A stretch of 64,000 bases of DNA from Pelodictyon luteolum (GTDB taxonomy: Bacteria > Bacteroidota > Chlorobiia > Chlorobiales > Chlorobiaceae). Shown here one piece after another: positions 24,611 to 64,000 of the stretch. The notes under the pieces were generated by a model. The model did no database searches. It saw only the letters and a program-made list of their open reading frames with translations, and had not been told where the DNA came from. The stretch's first letter is position 1. Each line of letters opens with the position of its first letter. The position numbers were made by a program, and so were the translations under genes. The stretch lies in NCBI GenBank assembly GCA_020721225.1, contig DYNE01000006.1:1-64000 (forward strand), given 5' to 3'.

Positions 24611-24860
24611 TCGGATACTCCTCTCCCCCGCTTCTCCCGCGAAGCGATACTCCAGCAATGCGAAGCGAGCTATACTCCGCGATGCGACAGCGAGCATACT
24701 CCCGTTCGCCCCGCGAACGATACTCCTCTCCCCCGCTTCTAAACACCTACTCCCCCTCTTCTCCCGCGAAGCGATACTCCAGCAATGCGAAGCGAGCTAT
24801 ACTCCGCGATGCGACAGCGAGCATACTCCCGTTCGCCCCGCGAACGATACTCCTCTCCCC
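24611..24860. repeat. Repeat A: hairpin/ATACTCC array with 103-bp perfect duplication
   Basis: Array-only member of the repeat family. Nine copies of ATACTCC occur (for example 24615-24621, 24647-24653, 24672-24678, 24696-24702, 24720-24726 and four more to 24853), each preceded by a small GC-rich hairpin-like unit. The block beginning at 24631 is repeated without mismatch from 24758 (period 127 bp, about 103 bp identical). A clear hairpin is GTTCGC-CCC-GCGAAC at 24704-24718. It fills most of the gap between convergent lpxK and the isochorismatase-like gene. It matches the right-hand array of repeats D and E and lacks their central part. Confidence 0.9.
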
Positions 24861-24916
24861 GATTCATCGTCACATGGCCCTGGATTTACGAGTGCCTGAA
24901 CGAATCAGACCTGGAA

Positions 24917-35413: not shown

Positions 35414-35797
35414 ATTTCAATTCTATACAGCTGGTTGGCGGAGATGAGATGTATCGTTCGCGGTAGAAGATTGGGGAATTGGTTCTGAGTTCTGAGTGGA
35501 GATCGGATGAACGTGCTGAGTGTTACGGGTTAAGGTTGAAAAGGCAGGATGGCTTGTCAGCTTATTGGCAGGAAAAGATTTTGGCTGTTTTGTTGTCTCG
35601 CCATCCAGCCAGAAGTTGAAAAGAACATAATTTTATGCAGCGCAGCGCGCGATACTCCCAATGGCGGAGCGAATGATACTCCCGGGCGTACCCGACCGAT
35701 ACTCCCGCGAAGCGATACTCCTTTTTCACTGGATAATATGAAGGAATTTCAGGATTGTCGCGGGCATATAACAGCATAGTTGTATTGGAAATGGAAT
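35414..35797. repeat. Repeat B: full-length modular element with terminal inverted repeats
   Basis: Element of 384 bp. The left end ATTTCAATTCTATACA (35414-35429) matches, imperfectly, the inverse of the right end TGTATTGGAAATGGAAT (35781-35797). Inside are the conserved heptamer region GGTTCTGAGTTCTGAGT (35481-35497), a 60-bp nested mini-element, and an array of four ATACTCC units separated by hairpins (35652-35720). The right terminus supplies the TAA stop of the HD-domain gene. It fills the whole gap between convergent DUF1003 and HD genes. Confidence 0.88.
35547..35606. mobile_element. Nested 60-bp mini-element in repeat B
   Basis: Segment bounded by GGATGGC (35547-35553) and GCCATCC (35600-35606), with internal TTTTGGCTGTTTTG. 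The same segment is present in inverse orientation in repeat F (63937-64000) but absent from repeats C, D and E at the equivalent place, so it is an insertion within the larger element or was lost from the others. Confidence 0.6.
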
Positions 35798-48430: not shown

Positions 48431-49462
48431 ATGCATATGTCTGACGCACTGCTCTCGCCCGCAGTCGGAGGAGCATTCTGGGCGGCAAGCGCAGCCCTCA
48501 TCGCATACAGCGCAAAAAAAATCGCCGGTGAACAGGATGGCATGAAAACCCCGCTGATGGGTGTTCTCGGAGCCTTCGTCTTTGCCGCCCAGATGATCAA
48601 CTTCACGATTCCCGGCACCGGATCGAGCGGCCATCTCGGAGGCGGACTGCTTCTGACGGTGCTTCTCGGCCCTTATCGCGCATTGCTCACCCTCGCTTCC
48701 GTGCTGGTGGTGCAATCGCTGTTCTTTGCCGACGGAGGGTTGCTCGCCCTGGGATGCAATATTTTCAACCTTGCATTTTTTCCTGCTTTCATCGCCTATC
48801 CGTTTCTCTACCGGGTCATTGCCGGTCAATCCCTCTCCACAGGAAGAGTCGCTGCGGCAAGTATTACCGCCGCAGCAGCAGGCCTCCTGATGGGTGCGTT
48901 TTCCGTCGTCCTCCAGACAACCCTCTCGGGCATCAGCGAACTGCCTTTCGGAACCTTCGTGCTCTTTATGCTCCCGATCCATCTTGCCATCGGCATAGTC
49001 GAAGGTCTTGTCACCATGGCGGTTCTGGTGTTCGTAGCAAAAACCGAACCATCAATGCTCTCACTGCAGCCGAAACCGACCGGCAAACCCTCATTCATAC
49101 TCGGTTCCTTCATCATTGCGGCCCTTGCTGTCGGAGGAGTACTCTCATGGTTCGCGTCGTCACGGCCTGACGGTCTTGAATGGTCGATGGCAAAAGTATC
49201 GGGACAGGAGGAACTTGAGGGCAAGGAAGCCCCGATTCACGAAACGCTCCGTTCGATACAGGAAAAAATAGCCTTTCTCCCCGATTACGGATTCAGAACA
49301 GCCGCCGAACCAGCTGCAGAAGTGATGAATTCCAAAGAATCGCCGGTCAATGCAGGCACGACGGTATCGGGCATTGCCGGAAGTTTTCTGGTACTGCTTC
49401 TTTCCGGTGCAGCCGGGATGCTGTTCCGCAAAAAAATACCGGCAACAAAGAACGGTCAATGA
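48431..49462 (+). CDS. nikMN: Nickel ECF transporter substrate-binding component NikMN (CbiM-CbiN-like)
   Basis: Membrane protein of 343 aa. The N-terminal MHMSDALLSP carries the free amino-terminus and His2 that bind the metal in CbiM/NikM proteins, followed by a conserved TIPGTGSSGHLGGGLLL loop and six to seven helices. The C-terminal third (about 215-335) is a fused NikN/CbiN-like PDGLE domain (SSRPDGLEW) with two flanking helices. Nickel rather than cobalt is inferred from adjacent nikR. It overlaps nikQ by four bases. Confidence 0.92.
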   Translation: MHMSDALLSPAVGGAFWAASAALIAYSAKKIAGEQDGMKTPLMGVLGAFVFAAQMINFTIPGTGSSGHLGGGLLLTVLLGPYRALLTLASVLVVQSLFFADGGLLALGCNIFNLAFFPAFIAYPFLYRVIAGQSLSTGRVAAASITAAAAGLLMGAFSVVLQTTLSGISELPFGTFVLFMLPIHLAIGIVEGLVTMAVLVFVAKTEPSMLSLQPKPTGKPSFILGSFIIAALAVGGVLSWFASSRPDGLEWSMAKVSGQEELEGKEAPIHETLRSIQEKIAFLPDYGFRTAAEPAAEVMNSKESPVNAGTTVSGIAGSFLVLLLSGAAGMLFRKKIPATKNGQ

Positions 49463-50214
49463 GTATCGAACCGTTAACAGCACAGGTTCGGAAAGAGCCC
49501 CACTGCGTTTTGCCGGCAGGAGACCGGTCATCCCTTGCCGTCCTTGTGCTGTTCATCCTTTTCGTGGTCTCGGTCCCCAAAAACAATCTGCCGGCGGTAA
49601 TCGTCTACGGCTCGTTTCCCCTTTTCTTCATCATCTCAGGCGGACTGCCGTTGCGTCCCATCATGAAACGGATGATGCTGATCTCCCCGTTTCTGCTGTT
49701 CATGGCGGCAGGAAACATCTATTTCGACAGGCTTCCTGTTTTTACGGCCGGAAGTCTCCCCATAACCGGAGGGATGATTTCCGGCAGCGTGATTGTAGCC
49801 AAAGCTCTTGTCACCCTTGCCGCCGTGCTTGTATTCTCCATCTGCGTTCCGTTTCACCGGTTTGGAAACGCATTGAGGGGTTTCGGTGTTCCTGAAGTTT
49901 TCATCACCCAGTTGCAGCTGGTCTACCGGTACAGTTTTCTTCTCGCCCCTGAAGCCCGATCACTGCAGAAAGCGCGCGATCTCCGATCATTCGGCAACAG
50001 GGGAAAAGATCTTTTTACGACAGCGCAACTGATCGGCTCGCTGCTTGTAAGAACAACGGCAAGAGCCGAAAGAATCTACATGGCCATGACTGCCCGGGGA
50101 TTCAGGAACAACCTGTCGGCAGAGGATAACAGCCCGTTTACAGCAAAGGACGGTGCAGTAGTCGCGACTGCCCTCTTCTGCCTTACCGCAGTCTGGTTGC
50201 TGTTCCGGGTATAA
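49459..50214 (+). CDS. nikQ: Nickel ECF transporter T component NikQ (CbiQ-like)
   Basis: Transmembrane coupling protein of 251 aa. Hydrophobic N-terminal segments and the two ARG coupling signatures are visible (PEARSLQKARDLRSFG; RAERIYMAMTARGF). It starts four bases inside nikMN. Its stop codon TAA is formed by the first bases of repeat C (TAATTCC), which separates it from the ATPase gene. Confidence 0.92.
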   Translation: MSIEPLTAQVRKEPHCVLPAGDRSSLAVLVLFILFVVSVPKNNLPAVIVYGSFPLFFIISGGLPLRPIMKRMMLISPFLLFMAAGNIYFDRLPVFTAGSLPITGGMISGSVIVAKALVTLAAVLVFSICVPFHRFGNALRGFGVPEVFITQLQLVYRYSFLLAPEARSLQKARDLRSFGNRGKDLFTTAQLIGSLLVRTTARAERIYMAMTARGFRNNLSAEDNSPFTAKDGAVVATALFCLTAVWLLFRV

Positions 50215-50519
50215 TTCCAATTCTGTTGTATCGTTCGCGGGGCGAACGGGAGGTGGCTGAGTTCTGAGTTCTGAGTTCTGAGTGGAGATCGGAAGAACGA
50301 GCTGAGTGTTACGGGTCAGGTTGAAGAGGCTGAAGTTGAAAAAAAACATAATTTTATGCCGCGCGGCGCGCGATACTCCCATTCGCGGAGCGAATGATAC
50401 GCCCGGGCGTACCCGACCGATACTCCCGCGAAGCGATACTCCTTTTCCACCGGGTAATAGGAAGGAATTTCCGGATTGTCGCCGGCTGTATAACTGCATA
50501 TTTGTATTGGAAATGGAAT
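50214..50519. repeat. Repeat C: 306-bp modular element inside the nickel operon
   Basis: Left end ATTCCAATTC (50214-50223), right end TGTATTGGAAATGGAAT (50503-50519); the two ends are imperfect inverted repeats. Inside: one hairpin GTTCGC-GGG-GCGAAC next to the left end, three tandem GAGTTCT heptamers (50259-50279), the conserved middle with TAATTTTATGCC-like sequence, then an array of ATACTCC-type units with the hairpin ATTCGC-GGA-GCGAAT (50381-50395). Orientation as in B, inverse of D, E and F. Confidence 0.9.
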
Positions 50520-50538
50520 AAGGCAAAAGAGCGCGCAA

Positions 50539-51258
50539 ATGATTACAGTCGAACGGGTAAGTTTTTCCTATCCTGACGGAACCAGGGCTCTTCACGATCT
50601 CTCTCTGACGGTCATGACGGGCGAATCAACCGGAATTGTCGGGGCGAACGGAGCCGGAAAATCAACACTGGTCAACCATCTGAACGGGTGGTACCTGCCT
50701 CAGACGGGAAAAATCACCATCAACGGTGTTGTACTCCTTAAAAAGAACCGGGAGCTCATCAGAAAACAGGCAGGGTTGGTCTTTCAGAACCCGGATGACC
50801 AGCTTTTCATGTCGAGGCTTTACGACGATATCGTCTTCGGTCCGGAAAATCTCGGCATGAACAAACAGAAAACCGCAGAAGAGGCGGAACGGATCCTCAG
50901 AGATTTCGATCTCTGGGAACTGCGCGACAAACCGCCCTCCAGGCTTTCGCAGGGGCAAAAGCGGTTTGCAGCTTTTGCCGCCGTTCTGATGATGCACCCT
51001 TCGGTACTGGTAATGGACGAACCCACTTCGGACCTCGATCCGCGCAACCGGAAACGCCTCATCTCGCTCGTCAACGCACTTCCGGCAACAAGAGTAACGG
51101 TTTCACACGATCTTGATTTTATCTGGGATACCTGCAGCGAGGTGTGCATCATGTCGAAAGGCCGCATAGCCGCAAAGGGAGCCGCAAAAGAGATTCTTCG
51201 GAACCGTGACCTGCTCGAGGCAAACGGCCTTGAGCTGCCGCTCAGACTGCAGGAGTGA
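50539..51258 (+). CDS. nikO: Nickel ECF transporter ATPase NikO (CbiO-like)
   Basis: ABC ATPase of 239 aa. Walker A GANGAGKSTLVNHL, Q-loop FQNPDDQLF, signature LSQGQKRFAAFAAVLM, Walker B VLVMDEPTSDLD and switch His (TVSHDLDF). It completes the NikMN-NikQ-NikO transporter. It is 325 bp from nikQ because of repeat C, so co-transcription requires reading through the element unless the element carries a promoter. Confidence 0.94.
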   Translation: MITVERVSFSYPDGTRALHDLSLTVMTGESTGIVGANGAGKSTLVNHLNGWYLPQTGKITINGVVLLKKNRELIRKQAGLVFQNPDDQLFMSRLYDDIVFGPENLGMNKQKTAEEAERILRDFDLWELRDKPPSRLSQGQKRFAAFAAVLMMHPSVLVMDEPTSDLDPRNRKRLISLVNALPATRVTVSHDLDFIWDTCSEVCIMSKGRIAAKGAAKEILRNRDLLEANGLELPLRLQE

Positions 51259-53204: not shown

Positions 53205-53238
53205 TTGTAAAAATCCATCCGCCTTAAGAGCAGCTGTG

Positions 53239-53611
53239 ATTCCATTTCCAATACAAATATGCAATTATATTGCTCGCGACAACCCTGAAATTCCTTCCCA
53301 TTAACCAGAGGAAAAGGAGTATCGCTTCGCGGGAGTATCGGTCGGGTACGACCGGGAGTATCATTCGCTCCGCGAATGGGAGTATTGCGCGCCGCGCGGC
53401 ATAAAATTATGTTCTTTTTTCAACTCCAGCCTCTTCAACCTGACCCGTAACACTCAGCTCGTTCTTCCGATCTCCACTCAGAACTCAGAACCAGGAACTA
53501 ATTCCCCCATCTTCTACCGCGAAGCGATACTCCTGCGAAGCGAAGCGAGCTATACTCCGCGATGCGACAGCGAGCATACTCCCGAGCACGAAGTGCTCGA
53601 TACTCCCCTGC
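53239..53611. repeat. Repeat D: modular element with both arrays
   Basis: Left end ATTCCATTTCCAATACA (53239-53255), then a left array with four GGAGTAT units (about 53316-53385), a conserved middle, and a right array with four ATACTCC units (about 53527-53606), so the two arrays face each other. Hairpins include CGGTCG-GGTA-CGACCG in the left array and GAGCAC-GAA-GTGCTC at 53584-53598. The right end lacks the terminal inverted repeat seen in B and C. From here to 53765 no gene is seen; TGGCCCTGGATT near 53680 recurs after repeat A. Confidence 0.9.
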
Positions 53612-53765
53612 CCCTCTGTAACACGTAGAACTTAACCCCTAACACGATCTTCATCTTCCCATTCCCTCATCGCCTGGCCCTGGATTATAAACGCATTATT
53701 GAAACAGAATAGGAATGACTTATCCCGATAAATGGAGAAACAGCGATGATCCGGATAACGTGAAC

Positions 53766-57246: not shown

Positions 57247-57606
57247 ATTCCATTTCCAATAAAAATATGCAGTTATATTGCCCGCGACAATCCTGAAATT
57301 CCTTCCCATCAACCAGCACAAAAGGAGTATCGCTTCGCGGGAGTATCGGCCGGGTACGACCGGAAGTATCATTAGCTCCGCGAATGGGAGTATAGCGCTC
57401 CGCGCGGCATAAAATTATGTTTTTTTTCAACTCCAGCCTCTTCAACCTGACCCGTAACACCCAGCTCGTTCTTCCGATCTCCACTCAGAACTAATTCCCC
57501 AATCTTCTACCGCGAAGCGATACTCCTGCGAAGCGAAGCGAGCTATACTCCGCGATGCGACAGCGAGCATACTCCCGTTCGCCCCGCGAACGATACTCCT
57601 CTCCCC
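57247..57606. repeat. Repeat E: modular element with both arrays
   Basis: Left end ATTCCATTTCCAATA (57247-57261), left array of GGAGTAT units (one degenerated to GAAGTAT), conserved middle, and a right array of four ATACTCC units ending with GTTCGC-CCC-GCGAAC and ATACTCCTCTCCCC at 57606. Same orientation and organisation as repeat D. It fills the gap between convergent ubiE and the VanZ gene, ending four bases before the VanZ stop codon. Confidence 0.9.
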
Positions 57607-63182: not shown

Positions 63183-63857
63183 ATGACGAAACCCGCCATA
63201 CCAATACCGGTAACCCGTAAGGGGCTCGATCGCAGCGCGCCTTTCGGTTTTACCTGCAAACGCTGTCTGCAGTGCTGCAGGAACAAGAAGATACAGGTAA
63301 ACCCGTATGAGATAGCCCGACTCGCGCACCATCTCGGCATATCGACGACAGAGTTCATCGAACGCTGCACCGTTGAAAACGGCTCATTCCTGAAATGCAA
63401 CGAGGACGGGTCATGCATGTTCCTCGGATCCGACGGGTGCGCGGTGCACTCCGACCGACCGCTGGTCTGCCGCCTCTACCCGCTTGCCCGCCATATGAAT
63501 CATATCGGCGATGAATGGTTTTCGGAACTGCAGGCCGCTTCCGCATGCAGTGGAAAATATGAAGAACACGGAACTATTCAGAGCCATATCGAGGAACAGC
63601 ATGCCCCTGCATACCTGCGTGCCGCGAACATCTACCTGAACCTTCTCTGGGAGATGATGACCGTTCTGGAAAATCAGCCGGATGACGAACGCGACGCCGA
63701 TCCTCCCGAAGGCAGCTCCGCTATACACAACTGGATGGATATGGATGAAGCCGTCACGAACTACTGCCAACTCCATCAACTGGACTGCCCCACGGATACA
63801 GACGAAAAAATGCATCTGCACATCGAGGCTTTGCAATGCTGGATAAAACCAGCATGA
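63183..63857 (+). CDS. YkgJ-family cysteine-cluster protein
   Basis: Protein of 224 aa. The N-terminal CKRCLQCCRNKKIQVNPYEI and later CNEDGSCMFLGSDGCAVHSD with RPLVCRLYPLA match the Fe-S/zinc binding CxxCxxCC pattern of the YkgJ (PF03692) family, whose function is unknown. An acidic C-terminal region (about 160-224) is not conserved-looking. Repeat F starts at the base following the stop codon. Confidence 0.87.
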   Translation: MTKPAIPIPVTRKGLDRSAPFGFTCKRCLQCCRNKKIQVNPYEIARLAHHLGISTTEFIERCTVENGSFLKCNEDGSCMFLGSDGCAVHSDRPLVCRLYPLARHMNHIGDEWFSELQAASACSGKYEEHGTIQSHIEEQHAPAYLRAANIYLNLLWEMMTVLENQPDDERDADPPEGSSAIHNWMDMDEAVTNYCQLHQLDCPTDTDEKMHLHIEALQCWIKPA

Positions 63858-64000
63858 AAAGGAGTATCGCTTCGCGGGAGTATCATTCGCTCCGCGGCAT
63901 AAAATTATGTTCTTTTTTCAAATTCTGGCTGGATAGCTGGATGGCGAGACAGCAAAACAGCCAAAATCTTTTTCTGCTGATCAGCTGACAAGCCATCCAG
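63858..64000. repeat. Repeat F: truncated modular element running off the window
   Basis: Starts AAAGGAGTATCGC immediately after the YkgJ stop, lacking the ATTCCATTTCC end. Two GGAGTAT units remain, with the hairpin CGC-TTC-GCG and ATTCGC-derived stem shortened to CTCCGCGGCAT, then the conserved ATAAAATTATGTTC region and the nested mini-element. The element continues beyond the window. Compared with repeat E it has lost two modules. Confidence 0.85.
63937..64000. mobile_element. Nested mini-element in repeat F
   Basis: Segment bounded by CTGGATGGC (63937-63945) and GCCATCCAG (63992-64000), a perfect 9-bp inverted repeat. The inside matches the inverse of the 60-bp segment in repeat B. It ends exactly at the window edge, so the outer boundary needs the neighbouring sequence. 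Confidence 0.55.

Follow-up and report, generated by a model that had tools for sequence, protein, structure and literature searches.

Tag-hairpin arrays of Pelodictyon luteolum and the miniature transposons that very probably carry them

The window examined here is the whole 64,000-nucleotide stretch of Pelodictyon luteolum DNA (positions 1 to 64,000 of contig DYNE01000006.1, assembly GCA_020721225.1, a draft of 144 contigs). Within it the cobalt transport genes cbiQ and cbiO are separated by 324 bp from stop to start, compared with 9-20 bp in 28 orthologous loci of congeners, none of which contains an element between the two genes in this species-level comparison. The gap is occupied by a 304-bp copy of a miniature transposon (MITE), flanked on each side by TAA; the element and one target duplication together make up 307 bp, and their removal leaves 17 bp between cbiQ and cbiO. 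Positions 50260-50519 match the complete copy of the window at 93%. The insertion would have hit the cbiQ stop codon, within the cobalt-transport operon. The features of this copy and of its relatives in the window are collected in the Table.

Table. Coordinates of the element at the cbiQ-cbiO junction, its flanks and the other copies in the window (TSD, target duplication; array A, hairpin-ATACTCC; array B, GGAGTAT-hairpin)
Feature	Positions	Strand	Basis or remark
Left TSD copy TAA, also cbiQ stop codon	50212-50214	+	Sequence; matches 50519-50521
MITE copy, 304 bp, internally shortened relative to 53240-53715	50215-50518	-	Ends, flanks
Right terminal inverted repeat remnant TTCCAATTCTGTTG	50215-50228	+	Sequence
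Last remaining A-array unit, hairpin CGTTCGCGGGGCGAACG	50232-50248	-	Sequence
B array	50358-50442	+	Sequence, unit census
B-array hairpins	50358-50372, 50380-50396, 50404-50419 (imperfect), 50427-50435	+	
B-array tags	50373-50379, 50397-50403 (ATACGCC), 50420-50426, 50436-50442	+	
Left terminal inverted repeat TTCCATTTCCAATACAAATATGCAGTTATA, exact	50489-50518	-	End comparison
Right TSD copy TAA	50519-50521	+	Sequence
cbiQ, cobalt transport permease, flanking	49459-50214	+	Pfam CbiQ 1.3e-25
cbiO, cobalt transport ATPase, flanking	50539-51258	+	Pfam ABC_tran; name inferred from place beside cbiQ
Complete MITE, both arrays	53240-53715	+	TSD TGA at 53237-53239 and 53716-53718
B array of complete copy, GGAGTAT-hairpin on + strand	53316-53400	-	
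A array of complete copy, hairpin-ATACTCC	53518-53606	+	
MITE, left end (TAA flank) and both arrays, without right end	57248-57606	+	
MITE, B array and left end (35796), without other end, extra spacer insert	35451-35796	-	
Truncated copy; 127-bp A array twice in tandem; before TTA a right end that has diverged (tentative)	24615-24916	+	
Copy start, shortened B array	63856-64000	+	Runs on to about contig position 64212

The heptamer ATACTCC was counted 43 times in the window, where 4.3 +/- 2.1 would be expected and shuffled sequence gave 10 at most, and 199 pairs of the form ATACTCC-(8-30)-ATACTCC were counted genome-wide, with none in the reversed control. The spacers between these tags are mostly hairpins whose stems vary by type yet remain paired. 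The unit census, which combines 100 of the 199 pair positions with array positions added from the element search, comprises at least 237 units and covers most arrays, perhaps not all. Unit lengths of 9, 15, 16, 17, 18 and 19 nt were seen. The commonest unit in the census is the 3-bp mini-hairpin CGCGAAGCG (at least 26 copies), followed by the bulged GCGATGCGACAGCGAGC (at least 23 copies). Perfect 7-bp stems with 3-nt loops begin CATTCGC, CGTTCGC, CGAGCAC, CGGATGC, CGGGCAC or CGGGCGG; the other types are a 16-nt unit (CGGTCG...), bulged 17- to 19-mers and the 9-mer. The latter includes GCGAAGC, an extraordinarily stable DNA mini-hairpin, and this stability may have a functional role in the CGCGAAGCG units.

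The initial annotation of this DNA had drawn attention to four hairpins of fixed geometry, with 6-bp stems and a constant heptamer behind each. All four were found where it had placed them, the one near 53339 with its tag on the minus strand, so that the plus strand reads GGAGTAT and then the hairpin. The quoted 17-nt units have stems of 7 bp rather than 6 (C-GTTCGC-CCC-GCGAAC-G). The geometry is fixed only in part, since the unit length runs from 9 to 19 nt and bulged and mini-hairpin types are the commonest, and the heptamer is nearly but not fully constant: it follows exactly in 208 of the 237 collected units, and variants such as ATACGCC (50397-50403, inside the B array at the cbiQ-cbiO junction) exist. 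A CRISPR-like array was rejected because the variable parts pair with themselves and just 7 nt are constant.

Most arrays sit inside miniature transposons of about 300-800 bp, a larger mobile element that the initial annotation had missed. A search of the genome with the copy at 53236-53620 as query gave 64 matches, and left-end matches numbered 40. The element starts with a left end TTCCATTTCCAATACAAATATGC... and four GGAGTAT-hairpin units, which make up the B array. A spacer with GCATAAAATTATGTT...CAACTCC comes next, and behind it the A array of four hairpin-ATACTCC units and a right end ...CATTATTGAAATAGAATTGGAA. The two arrays are inverted and face each other across the spacer in a BIME-like manner. 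The terminal inverted repeats are imperfect, and both ends begin with TTCCA and have TNA outside. Both ends were recognised in 23 copies, which measure 187-809 bp end to end; the copy at the cbiQ stop codon was left out of these because it is internally shortened and its right terminal repeat is reduced to 14 bp. An exact 3-bp TNA target duplication, whose second base is T, A or G (TGA/TGA among them), flanks 20 of the 23, and one of the three exceptions (L207) is due to an alignment slip, its sequence showing TTA at either end. The elements are short, non-coding and present in many copies, and those in the window are intergenic.

The same ends also enclose cores without hairpins (L257, L261, L263, L208 and L243), and for about a third of the collected units a MITE end could not be recognised within 650 bp, in some cases because the contig stops there. 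Arrays of this kind include one that two other genomes (G004 and G063) have at the same locus. Carrier and hairpin array can therefore be separated as modules, and cores can be exchanged. Further variation was observed in the spacers. A segment with inverted ends, GGATGGCTTGTCAGC...GCTGGATGGC, is present in some copies (35530-35625; L184, L226) and missing in others. Heptamer-like CTGAGTT repeats lie at 50257-50283, and the spacers and flanks of many arrays are filled by such short runs, GGCTACC- and GCCCACC-like in other copies.

A left-end match in a congener (G018) led into a transposase gene, the N-terminal part of which is present in 15 of 65 congeners. The sister-species insertion sequence (IS) is about 1.12 kb long with two reading frames, and can be assigned to the IS630 type because of its HTH_23/HTH_33 and DDE_3 domains. 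Both ends of the MITE are homologous to those of this IS: at the right end 33 of 40 positions agree, with a score of 26 where 2000 random segments reached 11 at most, and the left end scores 19 against 13 in random segments. The six IS copies with both ends likewise have TNA flanks, identical in four and unequal in two. Unlike the MITE, the IS encodes a two-frame transposase and lacks hairpin arrays, and a probe made from the N-terminal part of its transposase gave no match in the draft assembly of the present genome. None of the three DDE_3 genes of this genome has MITE ends. An autonomous copy was also sought among the left-end copies without arrays, and those that were read turned out to carry other cores between MITE ends and no transposase. 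Since the genome yielded no intact transposase flanked by such ends, mobilisation in this host can only be inferred, by an enzyme that would now be absent or unassembled. IS630 elements typically duplicate TA. The 2-bp TA duplication expected of an IS630-derived element was not found here, the duplication being TNA, and the link to IS630 would be limited to the homology of the ends. Two related observations were made in other genomes. In one of them (G052) six short sequences behind the IS left end (L280, L285, L289, L291, L292 and L293) match the initial 28 codons of its transposase and perhaps represent a further MITE family that goes back to this IS. One IS630-type copy (L271, in G023) is about 95 bp longer and has hairpin-like inserts (CGACCTCGAAGCAGAGCTTCGAGG) within the transposase frame.

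Among the 198 genomes searched, the triple-tag pattern was found 63 times in the present genome, five times in each of G004 and G063, and in no other; by this test arrays occur in three of 65 congeners and are missing from 62. Matches of the pattern scan in named genomes were mostly due to chance: the spacer test left only one locus with long stems (L129, Chlorobiota), another (L089) having passed solely through 8-nt direct-repeat spacers. A Chlorobiaceae locus (L055) represents the second array-bearing relative beside L129. No description of such repeats in Chlorobium was found in the open-access literature; CGTC-tagged REPs have been reported from Chlorobi, but their tag differs (PMC3733652).

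The comparison of stems showed that 66% of the positions are paired in distinct units, against 28% after shuffling and 46% when halves were swapped between units. The covariation score of 27 hand-picked units was 0.65, against 0.23 for shuffled and at most 0.19 for slid sequences, and all 55 distinct 17-mers, taken unselected, gave 79% paired against 57% and 81 double changes against 23. Compensation on both sides of the stem, as claimed initially, holds between stem types, where 84% of cells are paired (60% shuffled) and 46 cells are changed on both sides (14 shuffled), but not within a type, where 39 broken and 16 wobble one-sided changes stand against double changes of which four are paired and five unpaired. 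One-sided changes thus dominate within a type: it is the stem types that are paired, and the individual copies show no visible restoration of pairing. Within-type mutations are rarely compensated, which gives no evidence of folding selection on each copy. When folded as RNA the complete core is far more stable than its shuffles (z = -4.3), mostly through pairing of the B array with the A array, whereas the 71-nt array of the copy beside cbiQ, folded as single-stranded DNA, gave a modest value (z = -2.1) and a best fold other than four separate hairpins.

Selection on folding, as proposed initially, could act through some function of the RNA or single-stranded DNA. The strong covariation between stem types agrees with this, as do the loops, which vary about three times as much per base as the stems (the 16-nt type with its frequent T/G polymorphism left out), and a pair of arrays that two species have at one shared locus, in which the stems are kept and changes fall mainly in loops and unpaired positions. 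The argument is weakened, however, by the 55 one-sided changes against four paired double changes within types, and because template switching can create and repair stems in a single event, yielding paired double changes without selection (PMC8794818). Maintenance of the stems by folding selection is possible but less likely than not; the pairing can stem from selection on folding in active source copies or from template-switch correction, which is a live rival. Simple tandem duplication, the other origin considered at the outset, was rejected: arrays do occur in tandem, as at 24623-24860 and in a triple array of contig C99, but such copies only replicate existing hairpins and give no different paired stems.

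The likeness to REP sequences suggested by the initial annotation concerns layout and not membership. As in REP/BIME elements and RAYT-linked REPtrons (PMC3733652, PMC8266576), short palindromes with perfect or bulged stems stand beside a short unpaired tag in inverted pairing, at high copy number and in intergenic regions; the tag, however, is GGAGTAT where it precedes the stem, and not GTAG or CGTC at the stem foot, and in place of one palindrome per family at least six different perfect 7-bp stems share it, so that the stem varies from unit to unit. The CGTC-tagged REPs, whose hosts include the same phylum (Chlorobi), are also tagged stem-loops, but with near-constant stems of 8-9 bp and usually as inverted dimers (PMC3733652). 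A TnpA(REP) gene had been named as one to look for in the genome. RAYT homologues occur in 25 of 65 congeners, including all three array-bearing genomes, but no tagged hairpins flank the Y1_Tnp genes checked in the present genome (G000) or the best RAYT loci of G004 and G063, and 22 congeners with RAYT matches have no array by the triple-tag test. REP membership fails because the tag, palindrome and REPtron tests are all negative. That the units are nevertheless of REP/REPIN type, spread by an IS200-like HUH transposase (TnpA(REP)/RAYT) reading GGAG and the stem and in part trapped in MITEs, would agree with the GGAG-type tag, the inverted arrays and the arrays without MITE ends, and is quite unlikely. 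Still further from the data is the idea of RNA platforms binding CsrA or ribosomes, or acting as ribosome decoys, for which the place of GGAG might speak, since one of the two strands of every array has it between stable stems. Because a complete element holds both orientations, any transcript has GGAG in one of its arrays and the complementary motif in the second, and GGAGUAU pairs with AUACUCC in the fold; GGAG lies between the hairpins and not in an apical loop (though the CATTCGC units do have GGA as their loop when read on the ATACTCC strand), copies are truncated and duplicated, and 62 of the 65 sampled genomes of the genus have no arrays. Such a role is most improbable.

The Y1_Tnp genes offered an observation of a different kind. 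At one locus (L043, G000:C40:7406-10633) a minus-strand reading frame of 983 amino acids within the locus, in an open frame of 1332, encodes a type I restriction HsdR protein with an IS200-like Y1_Tnp domain in frame in its interior; HSDR_N (62-218) lies ahead of that domain and SWI2_SNF2 (597-814) behind it. The fusion may be common to several congeners, as RAYT matches in G004, G006, G010 and G046 also lie in long open frames (1082-1218 amino acids).

The tagged hairpins at the cbiQ-cbiO junction are very probably the inner part of a MITE with TTCCA-type ends and TNA duplication, which would have been moved by a transposase and carries a BIME-like tag-hairpin array as cargo; its ends, duplications, copy number, sister-species empty site and end homology to an IS630-type IS were directly observed. 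Like Chunjie of Geobacter uraniireducens and QMITE2 of Coxiella (PMC10969869), it is short, non-coding, intergenic and repeated in many copies, with terminal inverted repeats, a target duplication, a structured transcript and truncated copies resembling REPs; it differs from them in its core, an inverted pair of tagged-hairpin arrays whose stems change and which is swappable. The rows of tagged hairpins look new, while the miniature transposon that carries them is of an ordinary kind.

In the mechanism that we consider, an IS630-type transposase would have moved the elements by cut-and-paste, together with two inverted tag-hairpin arrays (GGAGTAT-hairpin and hairpin-ATACTCC) forming a BIME-like module that is also found without transposon ends. 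The hairpins would fold in RNA or when the DNA is single-stranded; source copies may give rise to new stem types that stay paired by template-switch correction, by selection on folding or by both, while individual inserted copies would decay freely. At their insertion sites the arrays are presumably structured and largely neutral intergenic inserts in the main, which may alter the local mRNA. It is tempting, if unlikely to be right, to regard the tag-hairpin array as a class of structure-recognised mobile DNA of its own, hitch-hiking in MITEs by which it is dispersed. If this were true, a constant 7-nt guide with freely changing stems would be read by shape and not by sequence, the reader could be one of the HUH transposases of the genome, and the covariation of the stems would mean selection for single-stranded folding.

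With its many independent inserted copies, its pairing between types and its little compensation within them, the array family offers a natural test case in which paired stem changes due to folding selection can be set against one-step repair by template switching. The large and apparently undescribed repeat load of this green sulfur bacterium is explained as a MITE family with swappable hairpin cargo, and the likely parent IS of that family can be named.
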